DNA from: Patescibacteria group bacterium
GTDB lineage: Bacteria; Patescibacteriota; Patescibacteriia; UBA11705; JABHMO01
DNA: 35,448 nt
Direction: 5' to 3'
NCBI GenBank assembly: GCA_018818405.1
Contig: JAHIRY010000038.1
Span: forward strand, 1-35,448
Position 1 is the first letter of the stretch. Each line of letters begins with the position of its first letter. Positions 5,345-32,501 of the stretch are shown here, one piece after another. The notes beneath the pieces are model-generated. The model worked only from the letters and a program-made list of their open reading frames with translations. It was not told the DNA's origin and ran no database searches. The translations under genes and the position numbers were made by a program.

Positions 5345-8300
5345 TTATGTTTTTTTCAATGTATCAACATCGTAAAAATCTTCATGCAGTTCATCCAGAT
5401 TCACATCCTCCAATTTTCCGGTAAATTTCTCGCCTTCCTTGCGCACCACTTTTTTCATTCCCATCACTTCAGCCTCAGTCTGCCGGCCGATATCCGTTCG
5501 AATCGTCGCATTCTCTCCTTCCGATTGAGCTTTGACAACATCTTCGCCGAGATTATGTTTCTTTAAAAATAAATCCTGCGCCAAATATCCTGATTCTTTT
5601 CCGGCCAGATTGTACAGAGGAGAACGCTTTGAAAAATATCCCGGTTTGTCAGCTGTCAAATAATAAATTTGGTTTCCCACGAGGAACGCGTAGCGGCCAT
5701 TTGAATCAGCCACTTGAGTGTCCAAGAGCTTGTTGAATTTGGAATCAAATACGCGCACGATTGATCGGCCGATTTTTTTCTTTTCGTCAACATCTTTAAT
5801 TTCGCCGAAACTCTTCGCTTTTTCACCGATTCCCAATTTTTTGAATATTCCATACATGGCGAGCTGAGAGACGACAATCGCGCCCACCCACCACTGCGGA
5901 TTGATTACAAATGAAGCGATCGCCAATGTCGGACCGATCATTGTCAATGCCGACTGCCCTTTTCTCATGAAATATTTTCGCAAAATTCCCTTTGGACTTT
6001 CCAACTTTTGAGACGGATCAAGCGCGATCGGCGGAGAAATCGTTTCTTTCTCAGTCACTTCGAAAATCGAACCGTAATACACATTCTGAAAATTTCCATC
6101 AACGCCGGCATTATTCAACAATCCGCTCGGAAATTTAAATCCTTTTTTCTCAACTGACATGAAATATTTTCCGGGCTTCAAAATGAATTGATAGCGTCCT
6201 TGTTTATCAGTCACCAGCGTTCGAACCAGCTGACTTGAATCAGCCGTATAAATACGCACAACCGCCAAATCAACCGGACGTTTTGTCACCGAGTTGTACA
6301 CAACGCCCCAGCGCTCTTTCTTCCTTCTCACAAACATGAGAAATGCCTGGCTCACGACAAATTGAATATAAGTGATCGCCGTCGCGCCGGTGACGCCGGT
6401 TACTCCGACAGTTGCCACGGACGCAACTGAAGTCGCGGTGACAGTCGCAATCACAGGCGCTTTGGCAACATCATTGGCTTGCTCTGCCACCGGATTGTCA
6501 ACTGTCGCTTGCTGTACTTGCTTTGTTGTTCTGATCGCCGATTTTGCCGTGCGATCAACTCCGGCTTTTACTTGTTCGTAGTCAACTCCAGAAATCGCAC
6601 TGATAACATTCGAAATCGCTTTTGTCGTATTTTGCACAGCATCGGACTGAAAAATGCTTTCAGTCTCAAATTCCAATTCTTGCGCTCGTTCATCAGCTGA
6701 TTTTTCCCATTCATTTTTTTCCTTTATGTCAGCCACTTGCTGCATTTTTTCCGGATCTTGCAAAATATTTATCGGGGGCGCGACCGCTATCGGTTTTTCC
6801 GGAATCGACTCTCCGCCGCCCGCTGCAGGCGGTGGAACCGGAGCAATCGGAGGTTCGACCGGAGGAGCTTCCGGTTTTATTTCCGGAATAATCGCAATCG
6901 GTTTTGGCACCGGTTTCGGTTCGACTATTTCTCTGACTTTCCGAATAGTCATTATTATTTGATTGGCGGAAACTGCTTTCGTCAGTTTTATTTCCAAATC
7001 ATTTTTTCCGTTTCGATCAACATCAAACTGCTTGGCCGCTTCTTTTATTATTCTGGCTTTGATCGGATCGCTTTCAATGATAATTCCGGAATCGCTTGCC
7101 GCCAAATTAACATTTTCAATTTTGAAAGTATGACGTATGTTGGCGATTTTAAATCCGAGAGTTCCGCCTTTTTGAATATTCACCAATGTGCCGGATTCCA
7201 CCAATTCAATATCTCTGGTTTCACCGCTGAGAACTGTAAATTCGGAATTCTCACTGTCATCAGTCAGACTGGAACAACCCGGATCATCCGGAAAATCAAT
7301 CAAACTATCCTTGTCATCATCTATTTTATTGTTGCACTGGCTGACAACTATTTTCTTGATTTCCAGATCGCTCGCCGCGGAAAATACGGAAATATTATTG
7401 GCCGCGTCCATTGATTTGACCGCAACCTTGTGAATGCCCGGAGTTAAAACCCTTGTCACGCTATATTTCCAGGCGGAAGCAACAACTCCCACATTGTCAA
7501 TCAATTGATTGTCCACATACAAAGCCACATATTTCGTATCAGCCGTTGTTGTGCCGGAAAATTCCATTTCAACCGAAACATTTTCACCTGATAATTTTTG
7601 CGATTTTATTTTAATGGAACTGATTGCCGGAACAAGCGGCGCAACAGTATCAACGGTAATTGTTTTGACCGCGGAATTCAATCCGCCTGATTTTATATAA
7701 ATTTTGTGCTCCCCATCAGTCAGGGCGGTTTCAACCGTCCATTCAAAACTTTTATCAATGCCGGAAGTCAAACTTTTTACTTTCACTTCATCAATATAAA
7801 TATCAAGAGGAAGCGACGCCTCTATTGTTGTTCCTTTGATTGTCGGTTTGCTGTTATTTGTCAGCAATCCATCGGCCGGAGATCCGATAACCGCAGGACC
7901 CGCATATTCGTGTTCTTCGTTGTCATCGTTTATGTCAACGCAATCAGGATCAGCCGGAAAATCTATTTTTCCATCCAGATCATTATCAATGCCGTCCTTA
8001 CATTGAGGAATGGTTGATTCATTATCATCTTCCAAGGTAGCGCAATCAGGATCAGCCGGAAAATCTATTTTCCCGTCAAGATCATTATCAATTCCGTCAC
8101 CGCATTGATACGGTCCGGCTTCATCATTATCAGTTGAACCGGAACAGCCGAGATCAGCCGGAAAATCAACCTTTCCGTCGCCGTCATTATCTGTTCCGTC
8201 ACTGCAAGCATAAGGTCCGCTTTCATCATTATCCGTCGAACCGGAACAACCGAGATCAAACGGATAATCAGTCAATCCGTCGTTATCATTGTCAATTCCA

Positions 8301-10648
8301 TCATTGCACAAATAAACCGGAGGCGGCGGAGCAGGAGGACTGCCTCCCAAAGTATAGTTATAGCTGATTCCTATATTTGTAATCTCCGGCGTCATTGTCG
8401 CCATGGCTGTTGAAAGATCAGCTCTCCAACGCAAATCGCTGCCCGCGTTCACAAAGGTATATTCCACTCCGGAAGTGACAGCCTCCCAATTTACTCCGCC
8501 ATTGGCCGATAAATAATAATCAATCGTTTGCCCGTTTAATACATCAGTCGCTGTCAATGTAGCGGCAGTGATATTCTGAGAAACCGTATCAACCGTAAGC
8601 GACTGAACCGTCTGAGCTGCGGCATAACCGGAATATATTTCGATCAAACTCCCGGCCTGATTGGCATAAATTACATCGCCGACAGCCATTGCTCTCACTC
8701 CGGTGATAAAATCCAAACCATGCATTTGTTTTGGCATACTATCATCTGAAATCGCTGTCCAGCTGGAACCTCCATTGATTGTATATTGAATCGTGCTGTA
8801 GCCGGAAACCATCATGACATTTTGATCCAATCCTTTTATTCGATAAAAAGCGGTGTCTGTTGCCGCGAATGTTCCGGTCAACCAATTCGTGCCTCCATCC
8901 ACTGTATAAAGATATGTATCAGTGCTGGCCTCTTTTGTCACAAAACAATTATCAGCATCATAACAATAAATCGTGCTCAAATTCGCTCCGGTTCCGCTGG
9001 CCTGCAATGACCAAACAGCTCCGCCGTCCGTTGTCTTCAAAATTCTTCCAAGATCTCCCAAGGCATAACCGACATTGCTGTTCAAGAAAAAAATATCATT
9101 GAATCCGCCCGCATAACCTGTTATTTGCTCAGTCCACAAAGTACCGCCATTAATCGTCTTGTAAATTCTCGTGTTTGAATCTTCGCCACTACCGACAACC
9201 CATCCCACATTTTCATCCAGAAAAAACACGCCCCACAAAAAACAGTTTACATCAATTCCCGTATTTTCATTTGTCCAGCCAACTCCGCCGTTCGTAGTCT
9301 TGTACGCGGTGCTGGGATATCCGACGCGCCAACCATTATTATCATCAACAAAAAAGACTTCATAGTTATCCTGCGCATTAGTGCTCGGTGTCCATGTACT
9401 GCCGCTGTTAATACTTTTCGCCACTGAATACTGCCCGGTAATATAAACTGTGTTTTCATTGGGAGCTTGAATACTTTCAAATGTTCTGGCAGTCAACGGA
9501 GTGTCAAATGCGGTCCAAGTAACGCCCGCGTCAGCTGTCTTAAAAATCATTCCGCTGTCTCCGACAGCCAAACCATTATTGCTGTCAATAAAATCAATCG
9601 CTAAAACATCAAAATTAAATCCTTCCGCCGCAAAAGTCTGAACAGTATTCCAATTTGTTCCGCCATCAAGAGTGCGATGAAGCTTTCCGCTATAATCTCC
9701 CGCAACATACATATCCTCCGCTGTCTTCACCGATTCCGCCGCGTAAGCCGGTGCTGACACCGGATCAACTGCAGGCACAACCCAATTCACACCGCCGTCA
9801 GTTGTTATCAATGTGCCATCCGTTCCCACCAACACGCCTTTTGCCGCATTGTACAAGGAAATATCATACATTGGATTTGTAAACGGATATGTCGCATTAT
9901 TCCAACCAAGTCCATCATAATAAACGACCGCATGCTGAGTATTCAATCTTCCACCGACAGCGATTACATTTCCTCCGACCGCTCCATCAATGGCATTCAA
10001 ATCACGAACCGTTCCGGTCGCTTCCATATTCCAATTCGTGCAACCATCCACGGTTGAAGCGATCTTTCCGCTCTCGCCAACGACCCAGCCGGTAGAAGCT
10101 GTCACAAAATAAAGATCATTCGGCTGAGAAATCGTAAAACCCGTATTTCCGCAAACAGCCCAATTCAACCCTCCGTCAATTGATTTTAAAACAGTTCCAT
10201 CCCATGCGCTGACATACACCATCATTGGCGGCATGGGAACGCTAATGCCTGTCAACTTTGTCAATCCGCCGCCGTAATTCGTCACTGTCCATGTCGTTCC
10301 GGTATCAGTGGTTCGCAGAATTACGCCATTATCTCCGACAGCCAGAGCGGTTGTGGCGTCAAGCCAAGCAACATCATTGATTCGCAACCCCTGAGGCAAT
10401 GGTTTTACCCAACCCCAAGAAAAACTTCCGTCAGTATGCAAAGTCGCTTGATTGTCGCGAACATTCCAATATGCGTCGGTGTTTGTCGTATCCTCATATG
10501 TTCTAGTCGTAAAATCTTCGGTAAATGTTTCAGTCGCGGCAATGGAATCTGATACCAAATAATGCCAACCAAAACCAAGACTGCCGCTCATGAGCATAAG
10601 CGCAATTATTGCATAAATTCCAAATCTCTTAAAAAACAATTTGATCAC
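5345..10648 (-). CDS. Giant modular surface protein (propeller, Asp/Cys repeats, Ig-like, carboxypeptidase-regulatory-like domains)
   Basis: A 1767-residue secreted or membrane-anchored protein. Start is a GTG (MIKLFFKRFG) giving a signal peptide with basic n-region and hydrophobic core (residues about 8-38). Residues about 85-680 hold roughly a dozen repeats of the form AVGDNGVILRTTDTGTTW, typical of Ycf48/BNR-like beta-propellers. Residues about 778-912 carry four tandem repeats C-x-DGxDNDxDGxxDFPxDxxC-x6-DxxE, with a fifth near 1103; the Asp spacing resembles thrombospondin-type calcium loops and the Cys are paired. Ig-like segments lie between. A Pro-rich linker (about 1239-1290), hydrophobic stretches (about 1405-1440 and 1560-1605) and two CarboxypepD_reg-like beta domains (about 1447-1530 and 1620-1685; both with DKQGRYQF or DSNGRYAF type cores) complete it. 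Probably cell-surface adhesion or attachment; ligand unknown. Confidence 0.85.
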   Translation of the reverse strand: MIKLFFKRFGIYAIIALMLMSGSLGFGWHYLVSDSIAATETFTEDFTTRTYEDTTNTDAYWNVRDNQATLHTDGSFSWGWVKPLPQGLRINDVAWLDATTALAVGDNGVILRTTDTGTTWTVTNYGGGLTKLTGISVPMPPMMVYVSAWDGTVLKSIDGGLNWAVCGNTGFTISQPNDLYFVTASTGWVVGESGKIASTVDGCTNWNMEATGTVRDLNAIDGAVGGNVIAVGGRLNTQHAVVYYDGLGWNNATYPFTNPMYDISLYNAAKGVLVGTDGTLITTDGGVNWVVPAVDPVSAPAYAAESVKTAEDMYVAGDYSGKLHRTLDGGTNWNTVQTFAAEGFNFDVLAIDFIDSNNGLAVGDSGMIFKTADAGVTWTAFDTPLTARTFESIQAPNENTVYITGQYSVAKSINSGSTWTPSTNAQDNYEVFFVDDNNGWRVGYPSTAYKTTNGGVGWTNENTGIDVNCFLWGVFFLDENVGWVVGSGEDSNTRIYKTINGGTLWTEQITGYAGGFNDIFFLNSNVGYALGDLGRILKTTDGGAVWSLQASGTGANLSTIYCYDADNCFVTKEASTDTYLYTVDGGTNWLTGTFAATDTAFYRIKGLDQNVMMVSGYSTIQYTINGGSSWTAISDDSMPKQMHGLDFITGVRAMAVGDVIYANQAGSLIEIYSGYAAAQTVQSLTVDTVSQNITAATLTATDVLNGQTIDYYLSANGGVNWEAVTSGVEYTFVNAGSDLRWRADLSTAMATMTPEITNIGISYNYTLGGSPPAPPPPVYLCNDGIDNDNDGLTDYPFDLGCSGSTDNDESGPYACSDGTDNDGDGKVDFPADLGCSGSTDNDEAGPYQCGDGIDNDLDGKIDFPADPDCATLEDDNESTIPQCKDGIDNDLDGKIDFPADPDCVDINDDNEEHEYAGPAVIGSPADGLLTNNSKPTIKGTTIEASLPLDIYIDEVKVKSLTSGIDKSFEWTVETALTDGEHKIYIKSGGLNSAVKTITVDTVAPLVPAISSIKIKSQKLSGENVSVEMEFSGTTTADTKYVALYVDNQLIDNVGVVASAWKYSVTRVLTPGIHKVAVKSMDAANNISVFSAASDLEIKKIVVSQCNNKIDDDKDSLIDFPDDPGCSSLTDDSENSEFTVLSGETRDIELVESGTLVNIQKGGTLGFKIANIRHTFKIENVNLAASDSGIIIESDPIKARIIKEAAKQFDVDRNGKNDLEIKLTKAVSANQIIMTIRKVREIVEPKPVPKPIAIIPEIKPEAPPVEPPIAPVPPPAAGGGESIPEKPIAVAPPINILQDPEKMQQVADIKEKNEWEKSADERAQELEFETESIFQSDAVQNTTKAISNVISAISGVDYEQVKAGVDRTAKSAIRTTKQVQQATVDNPVAEQANDVAKAPVIATVTATSVASVATVGVTGVTGATAITYIQFVVSQAFLMFVRRKKERWGVVYNSVTKRPVDLAVVRIYTADSSQLVRTLVTDKQGRYQFILKPGKYFMSVEKKGFKFPSGLLNNAGVDGNFQNVYYGSIFEVTEKETISPPIALDPSQKLESPKGILRKYFMRKGQSALTMIGPTLAIASFVINPQWWVGAIVVSQLAMYGIFKKLGIGEKAKSFGEIKDVDEKKKIGRSIVRVFDSKFNKLLDTQVADSNGRYAFLVGNQIYYLTADKPGYFSKRSPLYNLAGKESGYLAQDLFLKKHNLGEDVVKAQSEGENATIRTDIGRQTEAEVMGMKKVVRKEGEKFTGKLEDVNLDELHEDFYDVDTLKKT

Positions 10649-25779: not shown

Positions 25780-26610
25780 ATGACTCAATTCGACGAACTC
25801 TACAAAGCCGGCGTTCTGAAAATAATGAACGAGGGCTATGATGAATACAATGAACGAACCGGACATACTTGCAAGGTTATTCCGGGAATGACTTTTGAAT
25901 TGGATCTGGGATTTCCCCTGCTCACCCTGCGAAAAATTCCGCTGAAAATATTTGCGGCCGAACAAATCTGGTATATCATGGGCAGTGAAAAACCGGAAGA
26001 TTTCGTCAATAAATTCACCGGAATTTGGAAAGATTTCACTGAGGAAGACGGCACGGTTCCGGCTGCTTACGGCCACCGCTGGCGGCAAGCTTTCGGCAGA
26101 GATCAACTGGGAATGCTGGTAAAACATTTAAAAGATCAACCCGGCTCGCGCCACGGTGTTGTTATCACTTGGGATCCGCGAGAAGACGGACTGGGCGGAG
26201 AAAAATCGAAAAAGAATGTTCCCTGCCCTTACACTTGGACAGCTAATATAATCGGCAACAAATTGCATATTCACAGCATTGTCCGTTCGAATGACATGAT
26301 GCTCGGCTGTCCGCACGATGTCGCCGGATTTGCGCTCCTGCTCGCCATTCTGGCTGCTAAAATCGGAGTAAAGCCGGGAAAATTAACGCACAGCATTTCC
26401 AATGCGCACATTTACGATACTCATTATCAGCAAGCATGGGAATTGGTGGAACGGGAAAACAATCATCCGCCGATATATTTCGAAGCTCAGGGAAATTATT
26501 ATGATCGCGCGGAAAAAGGCGATGAATCGCTGGTAATGGAAATAGTGAATTTATTGGAAAGACAATATAATCCGCTCGGTTCGATTGGCGGAATGCGAAT
26601 AGTTCTTTAG
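25780..26610 (+). CDS. ThyA-family enzyme with a dCMP-type Asp at the base-reading position (thymidylate synthase or dCMP (hydroxy)methylase)
   Basis: Folate-dependent pyrimidine C5 (hydroxy)methylase fold, 276 residues. Conserved: R26 in ERTG, E61 and W64 (AAEQIWYIMG), YGHRWRQ, R124 of the phosphate-binding pair, catalytic C149 in VPCPYTW, R169-S170-x-D172 (VRSNDMMLG), H210 and Y212 (AHIYDTHYQQ). Not conserved: the second phosphate Arg is H125, the His after the catalytic Cys is P150, and the Asn that reads dUMP (N177 in E. coli, in PFN) is D180 in PHD. T4 dCMP hydroxymethylase also has RSND and Asp at this place, and an Asn-to-Asp change shifts ThyA towards dCMP (family knowledge from memory). 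DHFR follows, as for ThyA. It could still be the organism's only thymidylate synthase; substrate is uncertain, fold is not. Confidence 0.85.
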   Translation: MTQFDELYKAGVLKIMNEGYDEYNERTGHTCKVIPGMTFELDLGFPLLTLRKIPLKIFAAEQIWYIMGSEKPEDFVNKFTGIWKDFTEEDGTVPAAYGHRWRQAFGRDQLGMLVKHLKDQPGSRHGVVITWDPREDGLGGEKSKKNVPCPYTWTANIIGNKLHIHSIVRSNDMMLGCPHDVAGFALLLAILAAKIGVKPGKLTHSISNAHIYDTHYQQAWELVERENNHPPIYFEAQGNYYDRAEKGDESLVMEIVNLLERQYNPLGSIGGMRIVL

Positions 26611-26693: not shown

Positions 26694-27227
26694 ATGAAAA
26701 CTCGTCTAATAATGGTCATGTCTCTCGACGGCGTGATCGCCAAAAATTCAACGCACAATCCAATGGAATGGTCTTCGGCTGAAGATAAAAAACTTTATAG
26801 AGAAACCACAAAAGAAATCAGCGTTGTCATAATGGGACAAAAAACCTACGATGCTATCGGAATGCCGTTGCCCGGAAGACTGAATATTGTTCTAACCAGA
26901 GAAACAAGGGAAGATCAGCCGAATCTGCTGGAACACAAAAGCGGCGATGTGAAAGAAATTTTGAATGAATTGGAAAAACGCGGATACGCGCAAGCCGCGA
27001 TCTGCGGAGGAACTTTTGTCAATTCACTGTTTCTCAAAGAAAATCTGATCGATGAAATACAAATAACAATCGAACCGAAAATTTTCGGTTCCGGACTGCG
27101 ATTGTTCGATCAGATTGATGTTAATATTGATCTTGAACTCATTGAACTGAAAAATTTGAACGACAATACGATCAATGTTCTTTATAAAATAAAAAAAGCG
27201 GGAACTGATTTCAGTCCCCGACAATGA
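26694..27227 (+). CDS. Dihydrofolate reductase family protein
   Basis: 177 residues with the DHFR/RibD-C fold. MSLDGVIAKN at the start, EDKKLYRETT, the VVIMGQKTYDAIGMPLPGR segment (NADPH site and family signature), NIVLTRE, and the second glycine pair in ICGGTFVNSLF followed by EIQITIEPKIFG. Reduces dihydrofolate to tetrahydrofolate in the usual case, which ThyA-type reactions require; its position 83 bases after the ThyA-family gene fits this. RibD-like reductase activity is an alternative, since small CPR DHFR-like proteins are hard to tell apart by eye. No SD. Confidence 0.82.
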   Translation: MKTRLIMVMSLDGVIAKNSTHNPMEWSSAEDKKLYRETTKEISVVIMGQKTYDAIGMPLPGRLNIVLTRETREDQPNLLEHKSGDVKEILNELEKRGYAQAAICGGTFVNSLFLKENLIDEIQITIEPKIFGSGLRLFDQIDVNIDLELIELKNLNDNTINVLYKIKKAGTDFSPRQ

Positions 27228-27654: not shown

Positions 27655-27683
27655 ATAATAAACCGAAATAACAATTTTGTCAA
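27655..27683 (-). promoter_or_regulatory. Consensus promoter of the 113-residue orphan
   Basis: On the minus strand TTGACA (27683-27678), 17-base spacer, TATTAT (27660-27655). It overlaps the leader of the divergent Dcd/Dut-like gene. Confidence 0.83.
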
Positions 27684-27688
27684 CATTT

Positions 27689-28354
27689 ATGTCAGTACTA
27701 AGCAAAAAAGAAATTTTGGAAAGAATAAAAAACAAACAAATCGTTTTCACGCCAGACCTCGACGAATATCAACTTCAGCCGGCTTCCATTGACCTGCGCA
27801 TCGGCTGGAGTTTTTACATTCCGCATACTTGGCATTATAATGAAAAAGGCCGAGTGGCGATCAATGCCGATTATCTTGATTATCAAAACACGGAAGAATA
27901 TTTCAAATTGATAAAATTAAAACCCGGACAATTTTTTGAAATTTTGCCGGAAGAATTCATTTTGATTTCCACTCTGGAAAAAATAACTTTGAATTGCGGA
28001 GATCTCACCGGAAATTTGTATCCGCGCAGTTCCGCTCTCCGGCGCGGATTGCAAGTCGCCACCGGACTGGTCGATTGCCGATACAACGGACAGCTCACGA
28101 TTCCGCTGGTGAATTACAGCCGCCACATAATCAAACTTTTTCCCGGAGAAAGAATCTGCCAACTGCAACTAATGAAAATGGAAACCGAATTGAGCGAAGA
28201 AGAAGCAAAACAACACGGCGCGCAATCAGCCAAATATGTCGGCTCAACTCCCTACGGACTCGAAGCGAAAGCCGATTCCACCGCTGAAATCGATTTCATC
28301 AAATCGGGAAAAATATCGGAATTAAAAGAACAACACGGAATAAAAGCCGAATAA
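27689..28354 (+). CDS. dUTPase/dCTP deaminase superfamily protein lacking the deaminase Glu
   Basis: 221 residues from the ATG at 27689. The Dcd-type N-terminus (LSKKEILERI, LQPASIDLRIG) and C-terminal lid (AKYVGSTPYG) are present, with R113-S114-S115 in GNLYPRSSALRRGL. Motif III reads GLVDCRYNGQLTIPLVN: D129 and Y132 match the water-activating Asp and uracil-site Tyr of dUTPase (E. coli GLIDSDYQGQLMISVWN, from memory), and P139 stands where dCTP deaminase has its catalytic Glu (E138 in LEF). So deamination of dCTP looks unlikely and hydrolysis of a dNTP, most simply dUTP to dUMP, more likely. Hydrolysis of dCTP to dCMP is an alternative. Start of a tight block with the deaminase-like gene 12 bases later. 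Confidence 0.82.
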   Translation: MSVLSKKEILERIKNKQIVFTPDLDEYQLQPASIDLRIGWSFYIPHTWHYNEKGRVAINADYLDYQNTEEYFKLIKLKPGQFFEILPEEFILISTLEKITLNCGDLTGNLYPRSSALRRGLQVATGLVDCRYNGQLTIPLVNYSRHIIKLFPGERICQLQLMKMETELSEEEAKQHGAQSAKYVGSTPYGLEAKADSTAEIDFIKSGKISELKEQHGIKAE

Positions 28355-28366
28355 ATCGGAGGCGCT

Positions 28367-28915
28367 ATGGACATAAATAAAACAATCGATTATCCGTATC
28401 TTCCGGAAGGCAAGAAAATTTTATTCGTTCCGCCGGAAAATGTTTGGATGAACGAAGCGAAAAAAATGGCGGATGCAAATTCCGCGTGTTCTTGGTGGCC
28501 GACCGGAGCCGTTGTCGTAAAAAATAATGAAATCATCGGACGCGGCGCGAATTCCGGAAATTTCCAGCCGCTATGTCCGCGGGTTGAACACAATTGTCCG
28601 ACAGGCGAAGGCTATCATTTTTGCAATGCTCTGTGTTCTCAAGACGGACATTCGGAAGTCACCAGCATCATGTACGCGATCAAAAATGGAAATGATCCGA
28701 CCGGCGCTGATTTGTATTTATTCGGACACTGGTGGTGTTGTAAAAATTGCTGGGACGCAATCATTAAAAATGGAATTGCCAATGTTTATCTGCTCGAAAA
28801 CGCGCATTTATTTTTTGTCAGAGAAAAAAGACTGGCTCTCATGGATGAAGTAAAAAATAAAATACAACAAGGCAAATCCGTTTCTCGAGAAGAAATCATT
28901 TGGATTATCGAATAA
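28367..28915 (+). CDS. dCMP/CDA-family zinc deaminase
   Basis: 182 residues with the cytidine-deaminase-like zinc site: H95-S96-E97 (GHSEVTSI; HxE motif with the proton-shuttle Glu) and C125-x-x-C128 in WCCKNCW, where the usual Pro before the first Cys is Cys. Four further Cys (70, 77, 86, 90) between the strands could bind a second zinc, as in some dCMP deaminases. It most likely deaminates a deoxycytidine nucleotide, giving dUMP from dCMP or dTMP from 5-methyl-dCMP. GGAGG six bases before the ATG is a rare SD for this cluster. It lies 12 bases after the Dcd/Dut-like gene. Substrate is inference from family and neighbours. Confidence 0.82.
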   Translation: MDINKTIDYPYLPEGKKILFVPPENVWMNEAKKMADANSACSWWPTGAVVVKNNEIIGRGANSGNFQPLCPRVEHNCPTGEGYHFCNALCSQDGHSEVTSIMYAIKNGNDPTGADLYLFGHWWCCKNCWDAIIKNGIANVYLLENAHLFFVREKRLALMDEVKNKIQQGKSVSREEIIWIIE

Positions 28916-28969
28916 TCCGAGGCAAACGCGCAATCGCGTTTGCCGATTCATAAATAATTGAAATTCAAT

Positions 28970-29551
28970 ATGAACAAAATAATCGCTTTGGTCGGCATGA
29001 CCGGCGCGGGAAAAAGTCTGGTTGCCGATTATCTGGTCAATAATGGCTGGGGCTTTTCCAGATTCGGCCAAATTGTTCTCGACATTGTAAAAGAACGCGG
29101 ACTCGAACCGAAAGAAGAAGCGGAAAAACCGATTCGCGAAGAATTGCGGCGCGAACATGGAATGGCGGCAATGGCGCTTTTAAATATTCCGAAATTCGAC
29201 AAAATATTGGAAGAAAATAATTTGGTGGCCGACGGATTGTACAGCTGGTCCGAATACAAAGTTTTAAAAGATTATTATCAAGACAGACTTTCGATCATCG
29301 CGGTTTACGCTCCTCCGCGAATGCGCTATGAACGGCTGGAAAAACGGCAACTCATGGCGGAAGACAAAGATCTGCGCCATCGCCCGGCGACAAAAGAACA
29401 AGCCAAATCGCGCGATTTCGCGGAAATAGAAAACATTGAAAAAGGCGGACCGATCGCCATGGCCGATTACACATTGCTCAACATTTCCAGCAAAGAAAAC
29501 TTATTCGTCCAAATAGAAAATATTTTGGCGGAAATAAATTCAAACGATTAA
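28970..29551 (+). CDS. P-loop nucleotide kinase-like protein (UPF0200/dephospho-CoA kinase-like)
   Basis: 193 residues. Walker A GMTGAGKS at 9-16, then an NMP-kinase-like body: GQIVLDIVKERGLEP, a helical segment with REELRREHGMAAMALLN, the strand NNLVADGLYSW in the Walker B position, IIAVYAPPRMRYERLEKR, and a C-terminal DRDE-like SRDFAEIENIEKGGPIAMADYTLLN. This order matches the archaeal UPF0200 family and resembles dephospho-CoA and T4 dNMP kinases. Presumably phosphorylates a nucleotide or related metabolite; the position between the deaminase and thymidylate kinase suggests a deoxynucleotide. ATG at 28970 chosen over TTG at 28958. Confidence 0.78.
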   Translation: MNKIIALVGMTGAGKSLVADYLVNNGWGFSRFGQIVLDIVKERGLEPKEEAEKPIREELRREHGMAAMALLNIPKFDKILEENNLVADGLYSWSEYKVLKDYYQDRLSIIAVYAPPRMRYERLEKRQLMAEDKDLRHRPATKEQAKSRDFAEIENIEKGGPIAMADYTLLNISSKENLFVQIENILAEINSND

Positions 29552-30125: not shown

Positions 30126-30764
30126 ATGAACACTCAGGGCAGATTCATTGTTTTCGAAGGAGGCGAAGGCACTGGAAAAACGACTCAACTCAAACTCTTG
30201 GAACAAAAGCTGAGGGAAAAAGGATTTTTGGTTTTCGTCACGCGCGAACCGGGCGGCAATGGAAGTGAAATCGCGGAAAAAATCAGAACAATAATAAAAG
30301 ATCCGGATCACAAAAACATGGCGCCCGAAACCGAACTTTTTCTTTTTTTGGCTGCGCGCGCCCAGCATGTGCAAAAACATATTCGCCCCCATCTCGAGCT
30401 GAGCTACATTGTAATTTGCGACCGATTTTTCGGTTCCACTCTCGCCTATCAGCATTTCGGCCGAGGACTTTTCAATTTGGAAGAAGTGAAAAGAATAAAT
30501 GATTTTGCCACCGGCGGACTCCAGCCTGATCTCACAATTTTGCTCGACATTGATCCGGAAATCGGTCTGGCGCGAAAAAAAGATCAGCAAGTGCAATGCA
30601 GGCTGGACAATGAAAAACTTGAATTCCACGAAAAAGTGCGGAAAGGATATCTGAATTTATCGGAAACAAACAAAGACTGGCAAATTATTTCAGCGGAAAA
30701 CGAAATTGATTCCATTCACGAAAACATTTGGTCTCATGTGTCCCGGCTTTTGGAAATTGTATAA
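30126..30764 (+). CDS. tmk: Thymidylate kinase
   Basis: Phosphorylates dTMP to dTDP. The 212-residue protein has the P-loop EGGEGTGKTT (residues 11-20), TREPGGNGSEIAEKIR (the EPGG dTMP-binding motif), ELFLFLAARAQHV, the DRx motif in VICDRFFGSTLAYQ, and GLQPDLTILLDIDPEIGLAR, all standard for Tmk. The lid region RKKDQQVQCRLDNEKLEFHEKV has the Arg/Glu pattern of the family. Directly before thymidine kinase with 22 bases between. No SD. Assignment is secure. Confidence 0.95.
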   Translation: MNTQGRFIVFEGGEGTGKTTQLKLLEQKLREKGFLVFVTREPGGNGSEIAEKIRTIIKDPDHKNMAPETELFLFLAARAQHVQKHIRPHLELSYIVICDRFFGSTLAYQHFGRGLFNLEEVKRINDFATGGLQPDLTILLDIDPEIGLARKKDQQVQCRLDNEKLEFHEKVRKGYLNLSETNKDWQIISAENEIDSIHENIWSHVSRLLEIV

Positions 30765-30786: not shown

Positions 30787-31452
30787 ATGCAAGAGGATGC
30801 AATGCAAAAATCCGGCTTGATTCAAGACGGCTGGATTGAAGTAATCTGCGGATGTATGTTTTCGGGCAAGAGCGAAGAAGGCGGGAAACGAGTCACCAAG
30901 GAAAAACTTTCAAAAAGCAGAATTCCCATCATTTTTGTTCCGCGAAAATCACAACGAAAACTTACTTTAACATTCAAACAAGAACAAGTTGACGCCACCG
31001 GAAAAATGGTCAGCCGCAACGGCAAAAGTTTTGACGGCATTGAATTTTCAACATCCAATCCCGATGAAATAATTGATTTCATCAGAGAAATGACTGATCC
31101 GCCGACAACTGTCGTGATCGAAGAAGCTCATTTCTGTTCGGATGAATTGGTCGAAGTCTGCAAAAAACTGGCGGAAGAATTTCGCTTGCGCGTAATCGTC
31201 ATCGGACTGGATCAGAAATTCAACGGCGAAGGATTCGGTCCCATTCCCCGGCTGATGGTCGAAGCGGAAATGGTGACAAAAGAACTCGCCGTCTGCACCG
31301 AATGCGGCAGTCAGAACGCCAGCAAAAGCTGGCTCGATTCCAGAGAACGAAAGTCGCTGGAAAACGGATCAATTCTCGTCGGCGACACGCAATACGTCGC
31401 GCTCTGCCGGCATTGCTACCGAGAATTTGAAAAAAATTTCGGCAAGCAATAA
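30787..31452 (+). CDS. tdk: Thymidine kinase (TK1 type)
   Basis: Phosphorylates thymidine (and deoxyuridine) for salvage. The 221-residue protein has the TK1-type P-loop GCMFSGKS at 22-29 (GPMFSGKT/S in most, so Pro is Cys here), the catalytic region EEAHF with E112-E113, and GLDQKFNGEGF in place of GLDxDFxGxPF, and the lasso with a zinc ribbon C170-x-x-C173 and C207-x-x-C210. The central part (KSQRKLTLTFKQEQVDATGK) aligns less well with TK1, so substrate range could differ. Two possible starts: the ATG at 30787 or residue 6 (MQKSGLIQDGWIEV), which fits TK1 N-termini better. Next to tmk. Confidence 0.9.
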   Translation: MQEDAMQKSGLIQDGWIEVICGCMFSGKSEEGGKRVTKEKLSKSRIPIIFVPRKSQRKLTLTFKQEQVDATGKMVSRNGKSFDGIEFSTSNPDEIIDFIREMTDPPTTVVIEEAHFCSDELVEVCKKLAEEFRLRVIVIGLDQKFNGEGFGPIPRLMVEAEMVTKELAVCTECGSQNASKSWLDSRERKSLENGSILVGDTQYVALCRHCYREFEKNFGKQ

Positions 31453-31496: not shown

Positions 31497-32501
31497 ATGA
31501 ATAATCAAACGATTGTCAACGAAAAACAATGCAGATTGATTGCCGAAAAATTAATGCCGCTGGAACTCAGGCAAAATCATTTTCAACGTCTGTTTCTCAA
31601 TTTTCCCGCTGACACTGAAACAAAACTCCGCGCCTGGCTCTTCGCGACCGCGATCTGCCATCAGACGCATATATTGATCAACAAAAAGAAAAATCTCGTC
31701 GGCTGGGATTTTCTGGAATATGTTTACTCTGATTTGGGAAAAGAAAATTCGCCATTGCTTGATCCTCATTATTTGGCGCGATTGACAGCGCCGGAATTGG
31801 CGGAAAAACTCAAACCGCTTTTCGCGGATGACGGCAATCATGAGAATTGCACGCTCGACCGGCTGGAAGAACGCGCGCGTTTTATCATTGAAATTTCAAA
31901 ACAGCTAAATGAAAAATATGAGGGCAAAGTCGAAAACATTCTGCAGAAAAGCAATGGATTTTTGTTCAACAATGGCAACGGACTTTATGAATTGCTGGAA
32001 CAATTACCGCCGTTCGCCGATCCCCTGCGAAAAAAAAGCACCATCTTTATAAAATGGATCGTTGACGGGAAATTGATGCAAATCAAAGATCCGCAAAATT
32101 TTGTTCCGATTATGGATTATCACATGCAAAGAGTTCTTCTCCGCACCGGCTGTGTTGAAGTGCTCGATGCTGAATTGAGAGAATCGCTCCGCAAAAAAAA
32201 ACCGCTCGCTTCCGATGAACCGATCAGAAACGCGGCAGTCGAAGCCATTCGAAAAATTTCACAATTTTCAAACAAAGACATATCGGAAATTCATGATTTC
32301 TTCTACCCCCTTGGTCGAAGCTGCTGCAAAGAAAAAACGCTTTGCATTGACAAAACTTGCGACAAAAATCCCTGCACTTTTTTTCTCTTTGTAAACATAC
32401 CGGAACACGAAAAATGTATTTTCGAAGGAGTCTGCAAAGGAAACGCCGATGAAACTTACCGAAACTTTTGGCAGCCGATCGTTGGAACTCATTATTATTA
32501 A
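31497..32501 (+). CDS. Possible HhH-type N-glycosylase (queuosine-glycosylase-like) with C-terminal Cys cluster
   Basis: 334 residues. The N-terminal half is helical (FPADTETKLRAWLFATAICHQT, LVGWDFLEYVY). The centre reads PPFADPLRKKSTIFIKWI then PIMDYHMQRVLLRTGCVEV: an Asp (D207) followed by xHxxRVxxRxG, which resembles the catalytic Asp region of HhH-GPD base-excision glycosylases (VDTHVxRxxxRLG) and the DYRVPQ region of queuosine salvage N-glycosylases. The segment DEPIRNAAVEAIRKIS and IHDFFYPLGR also recalls the latter. Seven Cys (276, 277, 283, 288, 293, 307, 313) close to the end suggest a metal or Fe-S site, but not with the MutY spacing. Sits downstream of tdk, so a nucleoside or base N-glycosidic bond is a sensible target. 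Family call is tentative. Confidence 0.5.
   Translation: MNNQTIVNEKQCRLIAEKLMPLELRQNHFQRLFLNFPADTETKLRAWLFATAICHQTHILINKKKNLVGWDFLEYVYSDLGKENSPLLDPHYLARLTAPELAEKLKPLFADDGNHENCTLDRLEERARFIIEISKQLNEKYEGKVENILQKSNGFLFNNGNGLYELLEQLPPFADPLRKKSTIFIKWIVDGKLMQIKDPQNFVPIMDYHMQRVLLRTGCVEVLDAELRESLRKKKPLASDEPIRNAAVEAIRKISQFSNKDISEIHDFFYPLGRSCCKEKTLCIDKTCDKNPCTFFLFVNIPEHEKCIFEGVCKGNADETYRNFWQPIVGTHYY

Follow-up and report, generated by a model that had tools for sequence, protein, structure and literature searches.

The gene at 25780–26610 of the plus strand encodes a ThyA-family enzyme of 276 amino acids, in which the Asn that is typical of thymidylate synthases is replaced by Asp (D-type or Asp enzyme). 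It lies within a window of 35,448 nucleotides, that is, the whole stretch of Patescibacterial DNA that was analyzed. Together with a zinc deaminase encoded at 28367–28915, this enzyme probably (with a probability of roughly 0.7) provides the sole de novo route to thymidylate of its cell, by which dCMP would be methylated to 5-methyl-dCMP and then deaminated to dTMP. Thymidylate synthesis as taught proceeds through the methylation of dUMP by ThyA or ThyX.

In the proposed route, Asp180 of a dCMP methylase with the ThyA fold would hold cytosine rather than uracil, and the carbon of methylene-THF would be transferred and reduced, yielding 5-methyl-dCMP and DHF. The latter would be recycled by the adjoining dihydrofolate-reductase-like protein (DHFR; 26694–27227, plus strand; Pfam DHFR_1 61 bits, RibD_C 62 bits). 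The deaminase would convert 5-methyl-dCMP to dTMP, which the thymidylate kinase at 30126–30764 (plus strand; TIGR00041 186.7 bits, cut-off 83) would take onward to dTDP. dCMP may be supplied through the hydrolysis of dCTP by a protein similar to dCTP deaminase (Dcd-like), located at 27689–28354. A thymidine kinase, identified by profile matches at 30787–31452 (plus strand), leaves salvage open, which is a point against the route.

The assignment of the enzyme to the ThyA fold is clear. The ORF matches Pfam Thymidylat_synt (PF00303) with 163.5 bits (cut-off 24.3), its AlphaFold model has a pLDDT of 91.9, and all 50 PDB fold matches listed for the model are thymidylate synthases. In the alignment with E. 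coli ThyA, Cys149 (C146), the first phosphate Arg, Arg124 (R126), Arg169 (R166), Asp172 (D169), and His210/Tyr212 of the HxY ribose motif (H207/Y209) are kept, so that the catalytic Cys and the four residues R166, D169, H207, and Y209 are all present. The enzyme thus resembles the ThyAs of E. coli and L. casei in fold, catalytic Cys, phosphate Arg, C-terminal tail, and DHFR partner, but Asn177, His147, and Arg127 of these enzymes are replaced by Asp180 (codon at 26317–26319), Pro150 (Cys149 and Pro150 codons at 26224–26229), and His125, respectively. Consequently, it lacks the Asn177 and His147 pair of canonical ThyAs. The residues listed in the initial annotation (C149, R169/D172, H210/Y212, D180, P150, and H125) all proved correct in this alignment. 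None of the NCBIfam cut-offs for thymidylate synthase was reached, the best score being 132 bits against a cut-off of 327; for TIGR03284, the score was 106.2 against 108.35.

Published work describes the replacement of Asn177 by Asp as what switches methylation from dUMP to dCMP, and phage enzymes of modified cytosine are best told apart from ordinary ones by positions 177 and 147 (PMC8670742); the position of Asp180 as the selector between cytosine and uracil is also supported by PMC5175136. According to work cited in PMC8670742, the same replacement shifts the preference of the E. coli and L. casei enzymes to dCMP. The enzyme carries the combination of Asp177 with a residue other than His at 147 that characterizes the dCMP methylases of the Xp12 type, as well as the Asp179 and RSND of the T4 gp42 type. 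The latter likeness had been pointed out in the initial annotation, and both features were found in the T4-type gp42 of T6. As in the CMP hydroxymethylases MilA and BcmA, Asp occupies the position of Asn177. However, MilA has Ala176 and Lys133 at the positions of Ser170 and Arg124, which are the determinants of deoxyribose versus ribose in the work on MilA (PMC5175136). Since Ser170 and Arg124 are kept in the Patescibacterial enzyme, its substrate would be dCMP and not CMP, and CMP was rejected on these residues.

When a single genome was scanned for each species, 40 relatives with 53–81% identity to the enzyme were retrieved, nearly all of them from Patescibacteria (groups including Falkow-, Magasanik-, Moran-, Uhr-, Nomura-, Kerfeld-, and Harrison-) and one from a Chloroflexota MAG. 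Asp was found at position 177 in all 52 distinct clade members examined, again nearly all Patescibacterial, with no Asn among them, nor did any proven thymidylate synthase with Asp come to light. The catalytic Cys and the RS.D motif are equally invariant, and Pro150 nearly so (Leu in two and Val in two members), whereas position 127 is either His or Gln. In the tree, the Asp clade is set apart from every Asn enzyme (support 100/100), and a quick tree agrees. This separation and the clade-wide invariance of Asp, Cys, and RS.D show that Asp180 is not due to chance; a one-off mutation or an assembly error is ruled out by the clade of relatives.

The canonical or divergent short ThyAs retrieved all have Asn177 with His (rarely Val) at position 147. 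A separate set, mostly of proteins of about 500 residues, has mostly Asn177 with Leu at 147; its weak thymidylate synthase domain, with Asn177 and Leu after the Cys, occurs for instance in L118, L119, L131, L133, and L134 (genomes G197, G012, G038, G001, and G146). One divergent protein (G238) has Asp at 177 but is located outside the Asp clade and groups with the long set. Near two of the D-type genes (L021:6745-7872 and L112:7893-8939), there are thymidylate-synthase-like proteins of about 350–376 amino acids with RSLD and Asp at the 177 position, in which Tyr replaces the catalytic Cys (PPYQ); the PF00303 match is 30.5 bits for the former and none was obtained for the latter.

Among 380 sampled Patescibacteria genomes, 211 have a PF00303 gene and 123 a ThyX match, and the Asp enzyme was detected in 15 (G000, G006, G008, G040, G046, G098, G233, G239, G267, G294, G302, G314, G325, G344, and G369). 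PF00303 matched a single gene of the source genome (1.06 Mb, estimated as 100% complete), and a search for ThyX there gave none. This search for another thyA or thyX had been proposed in the initial annotation, and its outcome rules out a second thymidylate synthase elsewhere in the source genome. Similarly, the genome search found no second PF00303 protein and no ThyX in any of the 15 D-type genomes. The Asp enzyme is therefore the only thymidylate synthase of a known kind there.

The protein at 28367–28915 (plus strand) belongs to the dCMP-deaminase family both by profile and by fold, with folds that match the dCMP deaminases of T4 and S. mutans, and it is the candidate 5-methyl-dCMP deaminase. 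dCMP deaminases often accept 5-methyl-dCMP (PMC12088426). The Pro that precedes the first zinc Cys in PCxxC is absent, and the zinc site reads GHWW[C/A]CxxCW instead (GHWW-x-C-xx-CW; GHWW deaminase). The deaminases linked to the Asp enzyme share this site and an N-terminal YPYLPEGR-like stretch, whereas those linked to Asn enzymes have an ordinary PCxxCA-type site. H95, E97, C125, and C128, which form the HxE and CxxC zinc site, are invariant among GHWW deaminases. With its zinc ligands and proton-shuttling Glu retained, the enzyme should be active.

The Dcd-like protein (27689–28354, plus strand; ORF open from TTG at 27677) has Pro aligned to the catalytic Glu of solved dCTP deaminases (Glu138 of E. 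coli), and the same replacement is found in every D-linked copy. The protein is therefore probably unable to deaminate. Hydrolysis of dCTP to dCMP fits, and dUTP hydrolysis is also possible.

Both genes follow the Asp enzyme closely. The profile of the GHWW subfamily matched in 13 of the 15 Asp genomes and in one of the 365 others (E < 1e-39), and the Dcd-like protein was found in 14 and two, respectively; the Fisher p values (3e-21 and 2e-22) are optimistic, since the genomes are phylogenetically non-independent and the few independent within-family contrasts mean that these values overstate independence. In families f5, f61, and f94, both proteins are present in the Asp genome and missing from its Asn relatives. 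Within genus g150, the whole set differs between two genomes: the Asp version is found in G325, and an Asn ThyA with a more ordinary Dcd in G138. The GHWW deaminase is present even where it is far from the thymidylate synthase gene or on another contig (G006, G046, G239, and G344).

There are exceptions, and together with additional short genes of the ordinary dCMP-deaminase-like type in several Nomurabacteria loci, three genomes (G314, G358, and G360) weigh against the proposed route. In G314 (99% complete), the Asp enzyme is accompanied by a cytidine-deaminase-like protein as the sole PF00383 protein, which could act on 5-methyl-deoxycytidine, with thymidine kinase then following. G358 has no ThyA, and its GHWW deaminase adjoins a ThyX-like protein of about 480 residues with two Thy1 domains (C21:48507-50484; L146, L172), a kind of protein that is common in Patescibacteria. 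Either this ThyX could methylate dCMP or the deaminase could have its plain dCMP role there; the arrangement suggests that the GHWW deaminase may act on plain dCMP in some cells. In G360, a Dcd-like protein of the D-linked family (C7:8234-8887) lies near an Asn-type ThyA (C7:10569-11384), a neighbor with which a dCTPase role is less expected, and this favors caution on the function of the Dcd-like protein. Apart from these three genomes, G008 (84% complete) has the Asp enzyme without GHWW deaminase and Dcd-like protein.

An alternative is that the enzyme is a thymidylate synthase still acting on dUMP, with Asp tolerated by an altered pocket and the deaminase supplying dUMP from dCMP. The arrangement in G358 would suit such a role, as would the fact that the enzyme is the sole member of its family in its genomes. 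Divergent Asn-type ThyAs of the same phylum are also found near a dCMP deaminase, so the neighborhood alone does not discriminate. However, the effect of the same replacement in the E. coli and L. casei enzymes, the concurrent change of position 147, a deaminase whose distinct subfamily is missing from genomes of the Asn type, and closest phage kin from a group with 5-methylcytosine render action on dUMP unlikely.

The nearest phage relatives are enzymes of the Pamexvirus group, with 34% (phiH2) and 37% (AXL1) identity. The enzymes of phiH2, AXL1, and Donnerlittchen, which here represent the Xp12 group, form one clade with the Patescibacterial Asp enzymes (support 100/100, with the long branch as a caveat). 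In Xp12, 5-methylcytosine takes the place of all cytosine (PMC9206674), a deaminase converts 5-methyl-dCTP to dTTP (PMC12088426), and a dCMP methylase is cited in PMC5175136. The Patescibacterial set resembles this pathway in the ThyA fold with Asp177 and Pro147, in the adjoining DHFR and dCMP-deaminase-family genes, and in the presence of a nucleotide pyrophosphohydrolase; in AXL1 and Donnerlittchen, the gene order is pyrophosphohydrolase, thymidylate synthase, dCMP deaminase, and DHFR. On the contrary, Xp12 replaces all its cytosine and deaminates at the triphosphate level, the deaminase of its relatives has an ordinary PCxxC site, and their pyrophosphohydrolase belongs to another protein family. 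The Patescibacterial set is chromosomal, has distinct deaminase and Dcd-like subfamilies, and includes the sole thymidylate synthase.

Distant matches only were obtained when the GHWW deaminase was searched in phages, and the search of viral_contigs with the D-type protein gave no relatives. A profile search of IMG/VR contigs revealed two D-type genes, nested in the tree among the Patescibacterial D-type sequences. Their contigs, L186 and L187, are classed as viral, and each may stem from a CPR phage or be a piece of host DNA; a deaminase of the ordinary PCxxC type is encoded on L187 as well.

Alternatively, 5-methyl-dCMP (or 5-hydroxymethyl-dCMP) might be made mainly to enter DNA as a modified cytosine, in the manner of Xp12 and T4. 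The kinship with the Xp12 group, in whose type phage all cytosine is 5-methylated, and the Dcd-like protein as a possible dCTP-removing enzyme would agree with such a use. This is rather improbable given the chromosomal housekeeping setting, with ribosomal protein L11/L1 genes beside the enzyme, a dedicated deaminase that would drain the pool to dTMP, and the lack of any other thymidylate synthase in these genomes. As to modified cytosine in DNA as such, which the initial annotation had mentioned, the data speak neither for nor against it.

A slightly more doubtful reading gives the enzyme the function of T4 gp42, a dCMP hydroxymethylase. The fold, Asp at the 177 position, and RSND are shared with T4/T6 gp42, and some of the D-linked deaminases carry a fused domain similar to nucleoside deoxyribosyltransferases. 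The nucleoside-deoxyribosyltransferase family includes hydrolases of hydroxymethyl nucleotides. However, identity to T6 gp42 is 23%, against 37% to the AXL1 enzyme, and gp42 has a hydroxymethyl product and a context of glucosylated DNA. D-type enzymes retain a C-terminal tail of the thymidylate synthase type (e.g., IKGMKIVL, cf. IKAPVAI), which T6 gp42 lacks. DHFR is located within 2.5 kb of the thymidylate synthase gene in 42 of the 54 D-type stretches, with two distinct types in different lineages, and it would be needed only if DHF is produced. Hydroxymethylation would also leave these genomes with no second enzyme for thymidylate. The tail and the DHFR neighbors point to reductive methylation, which yields DHF, and methylation is thus favored over hydroxymethylation. 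It is very improbable that the Dcd-like enzyme removes dCTP so that all chromosomal cytosine is 5-methylcytosine, as in Xp12, with thymine drawn from the same nucleotide pool; if true, a cell would have one of its bases replaced throughout the genome.

The route from dCMP through 5-methyl-dCMP to dTMP is the best fit to the sole thymidylate synthase, the clade-wide Asp, the co-occurrence of the deaminase even when unlinked, the DHFR neighbors, and the kinship with the Xp12 group. It had been suggested in the initial annotation, together with possible action on dCMP, and the same five lines of evidence argue for it. Literature searches, limited to open-access papers, did not find the route described for Patescibacteria. 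The formation of a thymine nucleotide from a methylated cytosine nucleotide has phage precedent only, and its use as the sole cellular route would be new. If true, a cell lineage in which methylation precedes deamination would represent a third de novo logic for T and would have no need of dUMP for T, which bears on keeping uracil out of DNA. A connection would also emerge between the metabolism of CPR bacteria and a pathway of base modification in phages. The routine annotation of D-type genes as thymidylate synthase would then be corrected.

Several additional features were observed. In Uhrbacteria loci including L016:6381-7292 and L013:6369-7280, a nucleoside 2-deoxyribosyltransferase-like domain, possibly a nucleotide hydrolase, forms one protein with the GHWW deaminase; in genome G098 (L109:4707-5720), the fusion partner of the deaminase is an AAA_18 kinase-like domain. 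An AAA_18 nucleotide-kinase-like protein, identified by Pfam match, is encoded at 28958–29551 (plus strand) of the window. Next to the thymidine kinase gene, a weak match to a queuosine salvage protein (Q_salvage, 35.5 bits) is located at 31497–32501. On the minus strand, 5345–10648 encodes a large protein of 1767 residues, which carries BNR/sortilin-type repeats as well as a weakly matching bacterial Ig-like domain. A tmRNA gene at 1837–2219 has a long predicted tag of 22 residues, ANTFVSKVKSFFQMPNFAPVAV.
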